In this document: positions 4,039 through 7,391 of the stretch, one piece after another
How the letters are laid out: every line of letters starts with the position of its first letter
How positions within the stretch are numbered: position 1 is the first letter of the stretch
DNA from: a virus
DNA length: 30,671 nt
Direction: 5' to 3' (one strand)
Virus record (IMG/VR): IMGVR_UViG_3300007539_000119
Coordinates: 1-30,671 of that record
Made by a program: the position numbers and the translations under genes
The notes under the pieces: model-generated
Databases searched by the model: none
Told to the model about the DNA's origin: nothing
Seen by the model: the letters and a program-made list of their open reading frames with translations, nothing else

Positions 4039-4131
4039 TCAAATAAAATAGTCAGCGAACATTAGCACCATCGCAGCCGCAAGTAAATACGGCGCAAGGT
4101 GTACTTCGATTCTGGTACGTGGTCCTGTCAT
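4039..4131 (-). CDS. Tiny putative membrane protein (30 aa)
   Basis: Reads MTGPRTRIEVHLAPYLLAAA then MVLMFADYFI and stop. After a basic N-terminus, residues about 11-30 are almost entirely hydrophobic, consistent with one membrane-spanning helix. It starts directly downstream of the first hammerhead cassette with a GAGAG element about 6 bases before the ATG, in the same position relative to the cassette as the two other genes with this leader. The next gene has its own Shine-Dalgarno overlapping this stop. Small phage membrane proteins can act in lysis or exclusion, but nothing shows which applies here. Confidence 0.6.
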   Translation of the reverse strand: MTGPRTRIEVHLAPYLLAAAMVLMFADYFI

Positions 4132-4151
4132 ATTCTGTCTCTCTGTTGTAT

Positions 4152-4203
4152 AGTGTTTCGCCGTTACTGCGGCTCATCAGACCGGCTGGTAGCCGATGAC
4201 ACC
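4152..4203 (-). ncRNA. Type III hammerhead ribozyme, copy 1
   Basis: Read on the minus strand: the stem III strand and cleavage triplet GGTGTC (4203-4198), stem I ATCGGCT / loop ACC / AGCCGGT (7 bp with one G-U), catalytic CTGATGA (4180-4174), stem II GCCG / loop CAGTAA / CGGC, catalytic GAAA (4159-4156), then CACT closing stem III (5 bp counting the core A-U and a G-U). Self-cleavage is predicted 3' of C4198. All invariant hammerhead core bases are present. The ribozyme lies between the 86-aa gene and the 30-aa membrane ORF. The arrangement closely parallels classic satellite-RNA hammerheads. Activity is not proven; the short stem III is the weakest part. Confidence 0.9.
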
Positions 4204-4204
4204 T

Positions 4205-4220
4205 GCCCCCTTTCGGGGGC
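4205..4220 (-). other. GC hairpin with GNRA loop upstream of ribozyme copy 1
   Basis: On the minus strand GCCCCC, loop GAAA, GGGGGC: a 6-bp GC stem capped by a GNRA tetraloop, one base before the ribozyme and 8 bases after the stop of the 86-aa gene. There is no U-run after it in this direction, so it is not a standard terminator. After ribozyme cleavage it would sit 7 bases from the new RNA 3' end and could block exonucleases. Confidence 0.8.
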
Positions 4221-4228
4221 GTTGTGGG

Positions 4229-4489
4229 TTATGCGTCAAACATTATCCTCAACTCAACGCTGTTGCCGTTCTCATCAAAGGCCCGAATCGTCTTGACCTT
4301 CAGGTCTCGACCATCAATCCAGAGCTTCTCTGTTTTCTGGCTCAGGTCCATATCCTTGCAATGCATTCGGATAGACAGGTGAGATGTCTGCTTGCCGTCG
4401 TTGGCCTCGGAATCCTGCGTGATTGTTTGTATGTGTCCGTTGTTCGTTCGCGCGCTGTCAGTGGTTGTTCGCGACTTGTCTGTGATCAT
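4229..4489 (-). CDS. Hypothetical protein (86 aa) downstream of ribozyme copy 2
   Basis: Starts MITDKSRTTTDSARTNNGHI. The N-terminal 35 residues are Ser/Thr/Asn-rich and probably disordered; the C-terminal half looks like a small beta fold (SHLSIRMHCKDMDL, WIDGRDLKVKTIRAFDENG, VELRIMFDA). I chose the ATG at 4489 because the GAGAG leader shared by all three cassette genes lies directly before it; the open reading further upstream runs through the ribozyme. Function unknown. It is flanked on both sides by hammerhead ribozymes, so its mRNA should be released as a monocistronic piece if both cut. Confidence 0.7.
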   Translation of the reverse strand: MITDKSRTTTDSARTNNGHIQTITQDSEANDGKQTSHLSIRMHCKDMDLSQKTEKLWIDGRDLKVKTIRAFDENGNSVELRIMFDA

Positions 4490-4510
4490 GTCTCTGTCTC
4501 TCTGTTGTAT

Positions 4511-4562
4511 AGTGTTTCGCCAATACTGTGGCTCTTCAGTACAGCTGCTAGCTGTAGACACC
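4511..4562 (-). ncRNA. Type III hammerhead ribozyme, copy 2
   Basis: On the minus strand: GGTGTC (4562-4557), stem I TACAGCT / loop AGC / AGCTGTA (7 perfect pairs), CTGAAGA (4539-4533), stem II GCCA / loop CAGTAT / TGGC, GAAA (4518-4515), then CACT closing stem III. Predicted cleavage is 3' of C4557. Compared with copy 1, stem I differs at several positions on both strands yet still pairs completely, and stem II changes G-C to A-T with pairing kept. This compensatory variation is strong evidence for selection on RNA structure rather than on a DNA site. It lies between the 65-aa and 86-aa genes. Confidence 0.92.
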
Positions 4563-4564
4563 TT

Positions 4565-4580
4565 GCCCCCATTTGGGGGC
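4565..4580 (-). other. GC hairpin upstream of ribozyme copy 2
   Basis: GCCCCC, loop AAAT, GGGGGC on the minus strand, two bases before the ribozyme and after the stop of the 65-aa gene. It matches the hairpin before copy 1 in stem sequence and placement, with a different loop. Both hairpins are preceded by the same CCACAACG, so hairpin plus ribozyme plus leader form one repeated cassette. Confidence 0.75.
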
Positions 4581-4596
4581 GTTGTGGTTTATTTTT

Positions 4597-4794
4597 TTAT
4601 CGGGTGATGGCGTTCATTACCAGCGTTGAGATGCCGTCTCCAATTACCCGGAGGCGGTAGCCGCCATCGACCGAAAGGTTCCGCCCCCAATGATACCGCT
4701 CGATCACAATTCGGGTGATCGGGGTCCATCCGCACGGAGACCGCACTTCAGTGCATCCTGCAATCCTTTTCTTATCAAGTTCAATTCCGCTCAT
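4597..4794 (-). CDS. Hypothetical protein (65 aa) downstream of the incomplete ribozyme copy
   Basis: Starts MSGIELDKKRIAGCTEVRSP. Beta-rich and basic (ITRIVIERYHWGRNLSVDGG, YRLRVIGDG). The ATG follows the conserved GAGAG-containing leader by a few bases, as in the two other cassette genes. Not recognised. It belongs to a series of three short unrelated genes that share 5' leaders but not coding sequence. Confidence 0.7.
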   Translation of the reverse strand: MSGIELDKKRIAGCTEVRSPCGWTPITRIVIERYHWGRNLSVDGGYRLRVIGDGISTLVMNAITR

Positions 4795-4798
4795 TGTC

Positions 4799-4845
4799 TC
4801 TGTCTCTCTGTTGTATAGTGTTTCGCTCTTACTGGAGCTCTTCAG
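4799..4845 (-). ncRNA. Incomplete hammerhead (core and stem II kept, cleavage strand absent), copy 3
   Basis: On the minus strand it has CTGAAGA (4845-4839), stem II GCTC / loop CAGTAA / GAGC (4 perfect pairs, a third variant of the stem), GAAA, CACT and the conserved leader. Upstream of CTGAAGA there is no GTGTC and no partner for a stem I; the sequence is TCAATCAACA preceded by a hairpin. So it cannot fold as a self-cleaving hammerhead from what is seen. It is either a decayed copy, a trans-acting half-ribozyme, or a retained leader structure for the downstream gene. That stem II has stayed paired argues against complete decay. Confidence 0.7.
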
Positions 4846-4855
4846 TGTTGATTGA

Positions 4856-4887
4856 GGCCGAACCCATAGTTACCCATAGGTCCGGCC
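4856..4887 (-). other. 9-bp hairpin before the incomplete ribozyme
   Basis: On the minus strand GGCCGGACC pairs with GGTTCGGCC (one G-U) around a 14-base loop that holds the direct repeat CTATGGGT twice. On the plus strand the wobble becomes an A-C mismatch, so the structure favours leftward RNA. It takes the same place as the GC hairpins before copies 1 and 2, between the stop of the 153-aa gene and the ribozyme core. Confidence 0.65.
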
Positions 4888-4893
4888 ATTCGA

Positions 4894-5355
4894 TCACTCA
4901 GCATCCTCAGCTGCAGCCTCATCAGCCACTGTCTGCAGGACAGCCAGCATCTCTTCAACACTCAGTCCACCTTTGACGGCAGATCTGGCTGCTGATTCAA
5001 ACTTTTCGGCAGCAGATTTAGGCTGTGATTCCGTGACGTACAGCGTCCAAAAATCGTTCGCCAGTTGATCACGGTTTATCTTCAGTTTCTTGGGCACTGA
5101 GATGGTGCCTTCTTTCTTGTCAAACTCGAGGCCAATCTGCCCGATGTAATCCAGCATGTTGGCTCGGGTCAATCCTTTCGGCTTGCCAGCAATACCGGAC
5201 AGCGCCTCGAGGATCACCATCAGCGGCGTAGTGTTGCGATGCTCAGCCAGTTGATCGAAAGCAAAACCAGTAGCCTCGATCATGGTGGTTTCGGTCGCTG
5301 CTTTGCTTACTCGCTTGAGTGCATTCTTCAGAGTTTTGATAGTTGAAATAGCCAT
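4894..5355 (-). CDS. Hypothetical protein (153 aa)
   Basis: Starts MAISTIKTLKNALKRVSKAA and ends in an acidic helix (SVEEMLAVLQTVADEAAAED). The middle (GLTRANMLDYIGQIGLEFDKKEG then TISVPKKLKINRDQ) looks globular. No signal peptide or membrane segment. I chose the ATG at 5355 because AAAAGGA lies 8 bases upstream; an in-frame TTG eight codons earlier has no ribosome site. It is the first gene of the leftward group that holds the ribozyme cassettes, and the 25-base inverted repeat at 5391-5415 just upstream may control it. Family not recognised. Confidence 0.75.
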   Translation of the reverse strand: MAISTIKTLKNALKRVSKAATETTMIEATGFAFDQLAEHRNTTPLMVILEALSGIAGKPKGLTRANMLDYIGQIGLEFDKKEGTISVPKKLKINRDQLANDFWTLYVTESQPKSAAEKFESAARSAVKGGLSVEEMLAVLQTVADEAAAEDAE

Positions 5356-5390
5356 AATAAAATTTCCTTTTAGATTCAATAAGTTATAAG

Positions 5391-5415
5391 GAAAGTGCTA
5401 ACCATTAACACTTTC
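5391..5415. promoter_or_regulatory. Inverted repeat upstream of the 153-aa gene (operator candidate)
   Basis: GAAAGTG and CACTTTC form 7-bp arms; an inner TAA/TTA pair set with one mismatch gives a nearly perfect 25-base palindrome around CCA. It lies 36 bases upstream of the ATG at 5355, where a leftward promoter would be expected. A TATAAC-like -10 is visible at about 5383-5388 on the minus strand, with no good -35. A repressor or activator site is likely; an RNA hairpin is the alternative. Confidence 0.5.
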
Positions 5416-5427
5416 TCAATAACTCAT

Positions 5428-5869
5428 CCTATGCCAGTGTTGCAGCATCCTTGGCTTGACCGTCAGCTGATGCCGACAGTCTCACCATATCAGCCGCCAG
5501 AGACCGGCATAGGCTAACCAGCGATAGGGATACACCCTAAGGCCAGAAATGTGATATTGACCGATATTATCTGCAGCGTTTCATCTGCAGTACACCCTAG
5601 AAGCCCCGTGGCTTGCTAGGTGACCCTTGAGTAGATTCCGTAGGGTACGGTCGGCCTCGATTGGGGCTTACCGCTTCACATCGCTACCACCTCATCCCAT
5701 CCTGCGTTCAGACTGCCAGCTGTTGCCGGAGCCGTTCTGCTATCAGAGCATGTTGCCCGATGCTAGGCCAGAGTGTCGTAATCCGGGGCGCTGGTCCTCG
5801 CCACTTGTCAAACTTGTATTTAGAAGGGCACTCTATCCGAATGCCCAACTAGATGCAAGCCTTTTTTTT
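5428..5869 (+). ncRNA. Candidate structured rightward noncoding RNA ending in an intrinsic terminator
   Basis: No convincing gene lies between 5356 and 5867, yet the plus strand is dense with pairing. An outer helix CCTATGCC (5428-5435) / GGCATAGG (5506-5513) encloses GCATC/GATGC (5445-5449/5469-5473) and GTCTC/GAGAC (5479-5483/5500-5504), forming a three-way junction. Further hairpins are TAGGG/CCCTA (5525-5539), CTGCAG/CTGCAG (5571-5590), CCTAGAAGCC/GGCTTgCTAGG (5596-5620), CCGTA/TACGG (5638-5650), GCCTC/GGGGC (5654-5667) and AGCAT/ATGCT near 5750. The run ends at a terminator that works only rightward. I could not match it to a known RNA class; tRNA and RNase P features are absent. The 5' end and promoter are not identified. 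Confidence 0.45.
5813..5869 (+). terminator. Strong rightward intrinsic terminator
   Basis: CTTGTATTTAG (5813-5823) pairs with CTAGATGCAAG (5849-5859) over 11 bp including two U-G wobbles; inside, GGGCA pairs with TGCCC. The hairpin is followed by CC and eight T (5862-5869). On the minus strand the wobbles become C-A mismatches and no T-run follows, so it acts rightward. The T-run overlaps the stop codon of the convergent leftward gene. Confidence 0.85.
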
Positions 5870-6092
5870 ACAATTTCTTAACCAGAAACAGGTTATCCAT
5901 CGCTTCGTAGTCAAACTGGTAGCCGAGGTACTCTTTCACACGTTGAGTGGTCCAATATCCCGGCACTGTCAGCTGCATTGATCCTCCAGCTTCGTTGTGC
6001 TGCGTGCACTTCCAAAAGTTGCCGCACTTCACTTCGCCTCGGTAGATGTAGTCTCCATCTACTTTCTCGATGGTGGCTCTGTTGTACTCCAT
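5868..6092 (-). CDS. Hypothetical protein (74 aa)
   Basis: Starts MEYNRATIEKVDGDYIYRGE. Short, with two Cys (VKCGNFWKCTQH, about residues 22-31), a Trp/Tyr-rich middle (GYWTTQRVKEYLGYQFDYEAM) and a basic end (LVKKL). No membrane segment. There is no strong Shine-Dalgarno; an ACGGAT lies about 9 bases before the ATG. It is the first leftward gene beside the large control region, so it is probably transcribed early. Not recognised. Confidence 0.65.
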   Translation of the reverse strand: MEYNRATIEKVDGDYIYRGEVKCGNFWKCTQHNEAGGSMQLTVPGYWTTQRVKEYLGYQFDYEAMDNLFLVKKL

Positions 6093-6155
6093 GTTTGTTG
6101 ATCCGTTGTGTTACTTGATGAGGTGAAGATTAGACGGTCCGGTCAGAGATGTCTA

Positions 6156-6208
6156 ATTAGAATTTCTAATAACTTGATAAGCCACACCTAATGATGATTA
6201 GGTATAAA
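6156..6208. promoter_or_regulatory. Paired ATTAG/CTAAT operator-like palindromes with TATAAA box
   Basis: ATTAGA-ATT-TCTAAT (6156-6170) and CCTAAT-GATG-ATTAGG (6187-6202) share the half-site CTAAT, which also overlaps CTAATTAG at 6153-6160. TATAAA (6203-6208) follows directly as a possible rightward -10; no good -35 is found 17 bases upstream. The spacing suggests two dimeric sites for one regulator between the leftward gene at 6092 and a rightward promoter. Confidence 0.5.
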
Positions 6209-6283
6209 AGGTGGCAGCACTCTCCCTATCACATCCCGGCCCGGAATGCAACAGCTGAACATGAAATATATTCATGTAAAACC

Positions 6284-6346
6284 ACTGGATATACATCCAC
6301 CACTGTATGAAAAACCATGTGATTTTTGTAGTGGTCTCCAGTTTTT
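6284..6346 (+). terminator. Terminator- or attenuator-like hairpin in the control region
   Basis: ACTGGA (6284-6289) pairs with TCCAGT (6337-6342); inside, ACCACT (6299-6304) pairs with AGTGGT (6330-6335), and AAAAA with TTTTT (6310-6314/6323-6327). TTTTT ends at 6346. A competing small hairpin TGGAT/ATCCA (6286-6299) uses part of the outer arm, so two alternative folds exist. On the minus strand the structure is followed by only four T. If a rightward transcript starts near 6210, this is in its leader. Confidence 0.45.
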
Positions 6347-6543
6347 AAGCCGTCTCTGAAGCCGTAGGGGAGGCGATAGCAAACTGAATAGCCCAGCCTT
6401 ACCTACTGGGAAACGGCCCACAGAAGCCCACAGGAAGCCTCAGGGGAATATTAGAACATTATAATGTGCTGAAAGCCCCGTGTTCTCTGGGCTGATGTAG
6501 ACAGGTGACAACATCACTTCCTGACCATTTGGTCAAGTGTAAA

Positions 6544-6619
6544 TGAGAATCATTCTTATTTGAGAATCATTCTTATTTAGCCTGAGCCTGTCCTGAGATG
6601 TAAATGAGAATCATTCTCA
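6544..6619. promoter_or_regulatory. Three Fur-box-like palindromes
   Basis: TGAGAATCATTCTTA occurs at 6544-6558 and 6561-6575, and TGAGAATCATTCTCA, a perfect 7-1-7 palindrome, at 6605-6619. The 7-1-7 ferric uptake regulator consensus is TGATAATNATTATCA; these sites differ from it only by symmetric T/A to G/C changes at the fourth and twelfth positions, plus one more base in the first two copies. The first two sites start 17 bases apart. They lie in the noncoding region with no iron gene in view. Binding by a phage-encoded regulator is the alternative. Confidence 0.6.
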
Positions 6620-6633
6620 ATTAGCCTGAGCCT
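6577..6633. repeat. 13-bp direct repeat TTAGCCTGAGCCT following the Fur-like sites
   Basis: The same 13 bases occur at 6577-6589 and 6621-6633, each immediately after a Fur-like site; the preceding TGTAAATGAGAATCATTCT is also shared by the first and third sites. The whole unit of about 60 bp therefore appears to be a partial duplication. Confidence 0.8.
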
Positions 6634-6679
6634 ATGTTAGTATCCACTCACGTTATCTTATTAGGATATGAGAATGTTC

Positions 6680-6743
6680 GAATGTATGAATATTAGAATA
6701 TATGAATATCCGAATGTATGAATATATGAATATTATAATATTA
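6680..6743. repeat. AT-rich 16-bp tandem repeats (possible unwinding element)
   Basis: Four units in register begin at 6680, 6696, 6712 and 6728, all starting GAAT and matching GAATGTATGAATATTA closely, with a partial unit before them at 6672. More AATATT/TATTATA sequence follows to about 6758. Such AT-rich iterated sequence next to a control region is typical of replication origins or promoter clusters. Confidence 0.7.
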
Positions 6744-6758
6744 GTATATTATAATATT

Positions 6759-6783
6759 GGGGGTAGGGCTGGGGGTATGGGGG
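6759..6783 (+). other. G-quadruplex motif
   Basis: Runs of 5, 3, 5 and 5 G are separated by TA, CT and TAT, a textbook four-run G-quadruplex pattern on the plus strand. It directly abuts the AT-rich tandem repeats, so the junction of easily melted DNA and G4-forming DNA suggests a replication or transcription initiation site. Confidence 0.75.
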
Positions 6784-6848
6784 TTTCTTTTATTCCTTAA
6801 AGCCCCTCGACATTTTCTCACAATTTTTTCCTACAATGGGGAAGACCC

Positions 6849-6975
6849 CTGAGGTGATGCCTGAGAACGCATTCTGAGCCGATCTGAGAGGTTTTAGGGA
6901 TATAGGCTAGGCTACCCTACCAGGTTAGTGTCAGCTTGCTGACAGCCTCCCTGAGAGCCTCTGAGGGCTTCTGAG
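6849..6975. repeat. Helically phased CTGAG array
   Basis: CTGAG occurs at 6849, 6861, 6874, 6884, 6951, 6961 and 6971, with spacings of 10-13 bp inside the two clusters; three more copies lie at 6582, 6593 and 6626. This far exceeds chance for a 5-mer in 400 bp and the spacing places copies on one helical face, as for a cooperatively binding protein. Confidence 0.55.
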
Positions 6976-7076
6976 GAGCTTTCTAGTATATGCACCAAAA
7001 TGGTGCAAGGGAGTATGTCAGGGGGACGAAGTAGAACGCTAGAAGTGAGAGTATACGTCGGTGCGTAAGCCCGACG
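6929..7076. repeat. Cluster of three perfect hairpins
   Basis: TGTCAGC-TT-GCTGACA (6929-6944), TGCACCA-AAA-TGGTGCA (6991-7007) and CGTCGG-9 nt-CCGACG (7056-7076). Each is a perfect inverted repeat with 6-7 bp arms. None is followed by a T-run, so they are not simple terminators. They may be operator sites or RNA structures in the leader of the rightward transcript. Confidence 0.6.
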
Positions 7077-7146
7077 CCTATGTACACACTAGCTCCTTCA
7101 CCCCTCTCTCTGATGTAAGAAATATGTAGTAAGTTGTAAGGAATAT

Positions 7147-7188
7147 GTAAATGCTTGTAACATTTACCCCTCTCAACCAGTATATAAT
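7147..7188 (+). promoter_or_regulatory. Likely rightward promoter region with inverted repeat
   Basis: GTAAATG (7147-7153) and CATTTAC (7161-7167) form a perfect 7-bp inverted repeat, followed by a consensus -10 TATAAT at 7183-7188. The best -35 candidates (TTGTAA at 7155, TTTACC at 7163) are at non-ideal spacing, so an activator or phage factor may be needed. It precedes the whole virion gene block. Confidence 0.4.
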
Positions 7189-7227
7189 AAGTATATTATA
7201 TATATTTAATAAGAATAAAAAGAGAGA

Positions 7228-7284
7228 ATGAAAAGTTATTTAATACATATGTCTAGACATATACTGAGAGGGGATAAAGAATGA
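7228..7284 (+). CDS. Putative leader peptide (18 aa)
   Basis: Reads MKSYLIHMSRHILRGDKE. AAGAGAG lies just before the ATG, and the TGA overlaps the start of the next ORF (the next ATG is at 7281). It spans a perfect 16-bp palindrome at 7247-7262. It is too short to judge as a protein; a coupled leader ORF is plausible, and chance is possible. Confidence 0.35.
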   Translation: MKSYLIHMSRHILRGDKE

Positions 7285-7391
7285 TTGAATTGATTAGTGT
7301 AGCCATCATCTCATTTGCAGTGGGCTACTATGTCTGCTACCGATACAACGATGCTATCGATAAAGCGTTCCGTGACATAGGGAACAAGTGA
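7281..7391 (+). CDS. Small membrane protein (36 aa)
   Basis: Reads MIELISVAIISFAVGYYVCY then RYNDAIDKAFRDIGNK. Residues 3-20 form one hydrophobic segment, followed by a basic/polar tail, suggesting a single-pass inner-membrane protein with cytoplasmic C-terminus. GAGGGG lies about 8 bases before the ATG. Its TGA overlaps the next ATG (TGATG), tying it to the virion operon. Too small to name; it could be a lysis or spanin-like accessory, but no lipobox is present. Confidence 0.6.
   Translation: MIELISVAIISFAVGYYVCYRYNDAIDKAFRDIGNK

Follow-up and report, generated by a model that had tools for sequence, protein, structure and literature searches.

What would a phage gain from placing self-cleaving ribozymes, one after another, in front of small genes that are read in the same direction? 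The question is raised by a 30.7-kb viral record (30,671 nucleotides; the window, by which we mean the whole stretch of DNA analyzed) that comes from a podovirus-like phage and is divided into rightward and leftward gene blocks. The rightward genes include a 529-aa terminase that, in protein comparison, is ∼60% identical to those of Salinivibrio phage CW02, Pseudomonas phage PA11, and Zobellviridae Vibrio phages, and the leftward small genes span roughly positions 6100 to 1. Three minus-strand genes of the leftward block are central here: a 30-aa gene with a hydrophobic stretch (MTGPRTRIEVHLAPYLLAAAMVLMFADYFI; 4039-4131), an 86-aa gene (4229-4489), and a 65-aa gene (4597-4794). Searches of PHROGs and Pfam returned no match for the 86-aa and 65-aa genes, nor for the 101-aa and 153-aa genes, and the 30-aa gene had no match in PHROGs. 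The leftward and rightward genes are separated by ∼1.3 kb (6100-7380) that lacks an ORF of at least 50 aa and contains AT-rich stretches and repeated GAATGATTCTCA units, possibly a control or replication region. A 157-aa protein encoded at 147-620 on the minus strand matches Pyr_excise (pyrimidine dimer DNA glycosylase, PF03013) and phrog_624.

Two complete hammerheads and a broken third copy

The initial annotation described two complete type III hammerheads on the minus strand, with cuts 3' of positions 4198 and 4557, and both the elements and the cleavage positions were recovered by a structural scan. Copy 1 occupies 4149-4205. Read along the minus strand, it consists of one strand of stem III (4203-4199), the GUC site with the predicted cut between 4198 and 4197, stem I (4197-4191/4187-4181), the core sequence CUGAUGA (4180-4174), stem II (4173-4170/4163-4160), GAA (4159-4157), and the second strand of stem III (4156-4152), and is followed by the ATG of the 30-aa gene at 4131. 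Copy 2 (4508-4564) repeats this order, with a stem III strand at 4562-4558, the predicted cut between 4557 and 4556, stem I at 4556-4550/4546-4540, CUGAAGA at 4539-4533, stem II at 4532-4529/4522-4519, GAA at 4518-4516, and the ATG of the 86-aa gene at 4489. Stems I, II, and III are 7, 4, and 5 bp long in both copies, although stem I, drawn with 7 bp and a 3-nt loop, can alternatively be drawn with 6 bp and a 5-nt loop, and the stem II loop is a CAGUAA or CAGUAU hexaloop. Both copies combine the CUGANGA ... GAA core and a UH cleavage site with loop-closed stems I and II, an open stem III, and intact core-adjacent pairs (1.1-2.1, A-U or U-A; 10.1-11.1, G-C; 15.1-16.1, A-U). By structure, these two minus-strand segments are type III hammerheads, and they are predicted to cleave themselves.

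The sequences on either side of the two elements are also alike. Directly upstream of copy 1 is a 6-bp GC hairpin (GCCCCC-GAAA-GGGGGC; 4205-4220, minus strand), whose 3' end lies 7 nt before the predicted cut, and copy 2 is preceded by a second 6-bp GC hairpin (GCCCCC-AAAU-GGGGGC; 4565-4580, minus strand) ending 8 nt before its cut. Downstream, the leader that connects the hammerhead core to the start codon (ACACUAUACAACAGAGAGACAGA...; 4132-4157 for copy 1, minus strand) is nearly identical after these two copies and after a third one described below. The two complete copies bracket the 86-aa gene on one strand, the arrangement that defines clustered phage hammerheads, in which at least two elements flank individual genes.

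The third copy (4814-4866, minus strand) had been overlooked in the initial annotation, whose count of two holds for the complete elements. Its core (4845-4820) and stem II are perfect, with CUGAAGA and GAAAC intact, and it lies upstream of the ATG at 4794 that opens the 65-aa gene, but stem I and the GUC site are lost and the cleavage strand is mismatched. A 14-bp hairpin located directly upstream of the copy (4887-4856) takes up sequence from which the cleavage strand and stem I would otherwise be built. We rejected a clean deletion as the origin of this copy, since the alignment and the fold reveal remodeling into the hairpin. Its stem II matches the one in copy 1 of L028, a related contig, at every position, and the broken copy scored 28.1 bits in one covariance model and 23.4 bits in a model built from 16 other phage hammerheads. 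The broken copy looks like a remodeled, cleavage-dead descendant that has retained its leader.

Support for the fold

Whole-window dinucleotide shuffles (n = 400) produced a total of 8 hammerhead-like matches, most of them weak, and only one with at least 16 stem bp, compared with two matches with 16 stem bp in the real window. Across all retrieved loci (1.75 Mb, including the window), 223 matches were found in the forward sequence and 0 in the reversed sequence. The covariance model trained on 16 other phage hammerheads, from which the window and its relatives L028 and L062 were left out, gave the two complete copies 71.2 and 65.1 bits, with the next background match at 7.7 bits.

The initial annotation had also noted that paired positions change together while the core stays fixed. 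This observation is well supported in an ungapped alignment of 21 phage sequences, where 97.8% of the pair cells form standard pairs, 79 cells are changed on both sides compared with a shuffled mean of 21.8, and the covariation score is 0.713 versus 0.161 after shuffling, collapsing once the partner is slid by one column. Covariation is present in all three stems, and the loops are conserved as well, with an A at column 16 and CAGNAN in loop II of most of the aligned sequences. Since the 21 sequences were chosen by a scanner that demands pairing, the unbiased test is a pattern scan of IMG/VR in which the fixed positions were limited to the core, the first base pair of stem II, and a portion of loop II. 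That scan returned 22 loci, and each matched site also had stem I, a UH cleavage site, and stem III; the elements were type III at 20 loci and type I at two, and most were directly before an ATG. Structure, two covariance models, and covariation therefore support the assignment of type III hammerheads to the 5' leaders of these small genes.

The search with Rfam type III models proposed in the initial annotation was only partly successful. No match was found in the window at gathering thresholds, and at a relaxed threshold RF00008 (Hammerhead_3) reported copy 1 (34.8 bits, E = 5.4e-5), which is below the curated cut-off of 48.5 bits, and did not report copy 2. The window elements share the architecture and core of RF00008 but differ from it in the short loop of stem I and in the hexaloop of stem II. 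Because they fall below the gathering cut-off, routine annotation misses them.

Relatives and layout of the cassette

Clustered hammerheads of types I to III around single small phage genes, both bacterial and prophage, are described in the available text of Perreault et al. (2011; PMC3088659), who proposed that they process transcripts into single-gene mRNAs; the same text places a phage hammerhead of haloviruses HF1 and HF2 13 nt upstream of a start codon. A broader pattern scan of IMG/VR returned at least 120 stretches, and type III elements in this collection number well over 100. The suggestion that a tandem set of type III forms is unusual is accordingly not supported, in view of the 2011 clusters, the HF1/HF2 element, and the IMG/VR stretches. 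The window resembles the 2011 clusters in having several hammerheads that flank single small phage genes, and is unlike them, as they are described in the text available, in the hairpin that abuts stem III and the fixed spacing to the start codon. It also resembles the HHphage variant of HF1/HF2 and an element in Pseudomonas phage PaP3 in that only a few nt separate the hammerhead from a downstream phage start codon. The PaP3 element before orf71, in which by eye the start codon comes 5 nt after GAAA, shows a U-U pair at the stem II base, whereas both window copies have a canonical core; the PaP3 elements were recognized by eye, having been missed by our strict scanner and left unreported by model R1.

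To describe the layout more generally, we surveyed non-redundant elements. The next ATG was 12-40 nt past GAA in 83% of 109 type III elements, compared with 19% of random positions. A hairpin of at least 7 bp ending within 12 nt of the cut was present in 47 of 104 type III elements (45%), compared with 17% of hammerhead-free intergenic windows (Fisher p = 8e-9), and in 32 of the 47 its end was 0-2 nt from the stem III boundary. The same register was seen in 5 of 34 type I (15%) and 3 of 22 type II (14%) elements, a comparison between types that rests on incidentally recovered type I and II elements, since the loci were gathered with patterns mostly favoring type III. A comparable hairpin can be found somewhere in 46% of hammerhead-free intergenic regions, so the special feature is the position of the hairpin and not its presence. 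The two window hairpins, with 6 bp, are just under the survey threshold of 7 bp. We found no description of the hairpin register or of its type III bias in the open-access literature, as far as the available texts go, and it may have been described elsewhere.

Several observations on other contigs accompany the survey. A hairpin around GTGTCTTCAAAGACAC, which itself reads GTGTC like a cleavage strand, recurs directly before type III hammerheads in L086, L093, L104, L108, L124, L164, L166, L167, and others. Hammerhead types can also be mixed on one contig: L069 carries types III, III, II, and I on the plus strand within ∼2.2 kb (4964-7200), L074 carries types III, II, and I, and L070 carries types III and II.

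L028, L062, and L081 have hammerheads that closely resemble the window copies. The 86-aa gene has a 45% identical counterpart in L062 that is also downstream of a hammerhead, and the 30-aa gene has a 73% identical counterpart in L028 that lacks a preceding one; L028 carries the cassette before other genes. The cassette thus shifts its position relative to genes. No terminase was found in the partial records that hold L028, L062, and L081, and kinship to the window therefore rests on the small genes and leaders. Protein searches of IMG/VR for relatives of the 86-aa and 101-aa genes returned none, and an exact 16-mer, GAAACACTATACAACA, was discarded as a probe after it gave mostly chance matches in IMG/VR, L028 alone being real. 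L028 (1-1000) and L062 (4300-5440) also share ∼1 kb of mutually similar DNA upstream of the first hammerhead, in which no obvious gene but repeated GATTGACC/TTTGACC units are seen.

Early-region DNA of the window showed no similarity to named phages in near mode; distant mode gave a single match of 60-75 nt, located around 500-572. A TerL search gave relatives at about 60% identity, and 12 of these loci were scanned with model R1, which reported no hammerhead in any of them, nor in CW02, PA11, Vibrio phages 1.235.O and 464E53-1, or PQ867842. By this model, the element is not a family-wide trait.

Probable message splitting and its alternatives

We consider it likely, from sequence and layout, that type III hammerheads divide co-transcribed phage mRNA between small genes, giving trimmed messages with structured ends. 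A leftward polycistronic transcript would be made, and each hammerhead would fold during transcription and cut itself after GUC. The upstream message would then end in the GC hairpin plus 7-8 nt with a 2',3'-cyclic phosphate, and the downstream message would open with a 5'-OH where stem I begins, with stem II, the short leader, and the ATG coming next. The type III architecture would set the new 5' end flush against a closed stem I hairpin and would free the strand just before the start codon. Each small gene would have a separate trimmed mRNA, structured at its ends and not dependent on the upstream leader. Such ends should resist both 5'-monophosphate-dependent attack by RNase E and 3' exonucleases.

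The spacing to the ATG and the register of the hairpin fit co-transcriptional self-cleavage. In addition, the minus strand between 3500 and 7400 yielded no sigma-70-like promoter, as expected if the genes are transcribed together, in a scan that other types of phage promoter would escape. The broken third copy stands against message splitting, since it still leads a gene while lacking a cleavage strand, which indicates that cleavage is not indispensable at that gene. According to the available text of PMC3088659, phage hammerheads arranged in tandem are active in vitro, and cleavage in E. coli is also described for one set. RiboJ, a synthetic insulator made of the sTRSV hammerhead and a hairpin, is a type III hammerhead leader that raises transcript and protein levels in E. 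coli, roughly doubling transcript abundance, and its terminal hairpin has been suggested as a possible reason (PMC6206723). RiboJ leaves a structured 5' end before the ribosome binding site, as the window elements would, but it is engineered, and its extra hairpin is downstream of the ribozyme whereas that of the window is upstream. Some 5'-hydroxylated RNAs are cut less efficiently by RNase E, but direct entry of RNase E without a 5' monophosphate is possible and common (PMC4191395), so protection by the 5'-OH may be partial.

If the ribozyme were instead a translation switch, an extended stem III would pair the ribosome binding site with sequence upstream of the cut, and cleavage would set the site free. 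Among 66 type III leaders with an SD-like motif, the predicted accessibility of that motif rose by more than 0.3 on cleavage in 14 and fell equally in one. In the window, however, cleavage has little effect on predicted accessibility (0.67 to 0.79 and 0.63 to 0.51), the leader is unpaired beyond the 5 bp of stem III, and the SD motifs are weak. We therefore rejected release of the binding site as the role of the window elements and regard the switch as an unlikely explanation, although the modeled accessibilities allow that release is possibly an extra role at other loci.

The near-identical leader in front of three unrelated small genes, together with the presence of the cassette before the 30-aa gene of the window, its absence before the relative of that gene in L028, and its use before other genes there, could also mean that the cassette is kept through recombinational spread between phage leaders, the modular leader serving as a patch of homology and cleavage being secondary. 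As the explanation for maintenance this is rather improbable, because the stems covary around an invariant core across distant phages, which demonstrates selection on the ribozyme fold itself; as an account of how the cassette spreads, it is compatible with message splitting.

That the GC hairpins are intrinsic terminators, with the hammerheads merely trimming read-through RNA, is highly improbable and was rejected: strong hairpins do sit after the stop codon of the upstream gene, but none of the 47 type III-adjacent hairpins of at least 7 bp has 5 or more T in the next 8 nt, AGGUGUC and AAGGUGUC come after the two window hairpins on the minus strand, and a terminator scan found the hairpin at 4564-4581 on the plus strand only.

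Message splitting may extend beyond this phage. We tentatively propose that several phage lineages share a two-ended mRNA-maturation cassette, in which a hairpin abuts stem III of a type III hammerhead and the leader to the start codon has a near-fixed length; we hold this with less confidence than message splitting itself. If the proposal is true, both new RNA ends, 3' on the upstream message and 5' on the downstream one, are capped by a single self-cut. In phage T7, RNase III sites do the same job of maturing both message ends.

Elements of this kind have been known in phages since 2011, and the window is a sound further example. A 2017 review still regarded what hammerheads do in bacteria and phages as an open question (PMC6155905). 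The survey yields a specific prediction, that the cut lies right after a hairpin and a short distance ahead of a start codon more often in type III elements than in types I and II, a placement that would be expected if both new RNA ends need protection. The phage offers a built-in comparison of ribozyme presence and absence, since the 30-aa gene is found in both states and a third gene is led by a broken copy.
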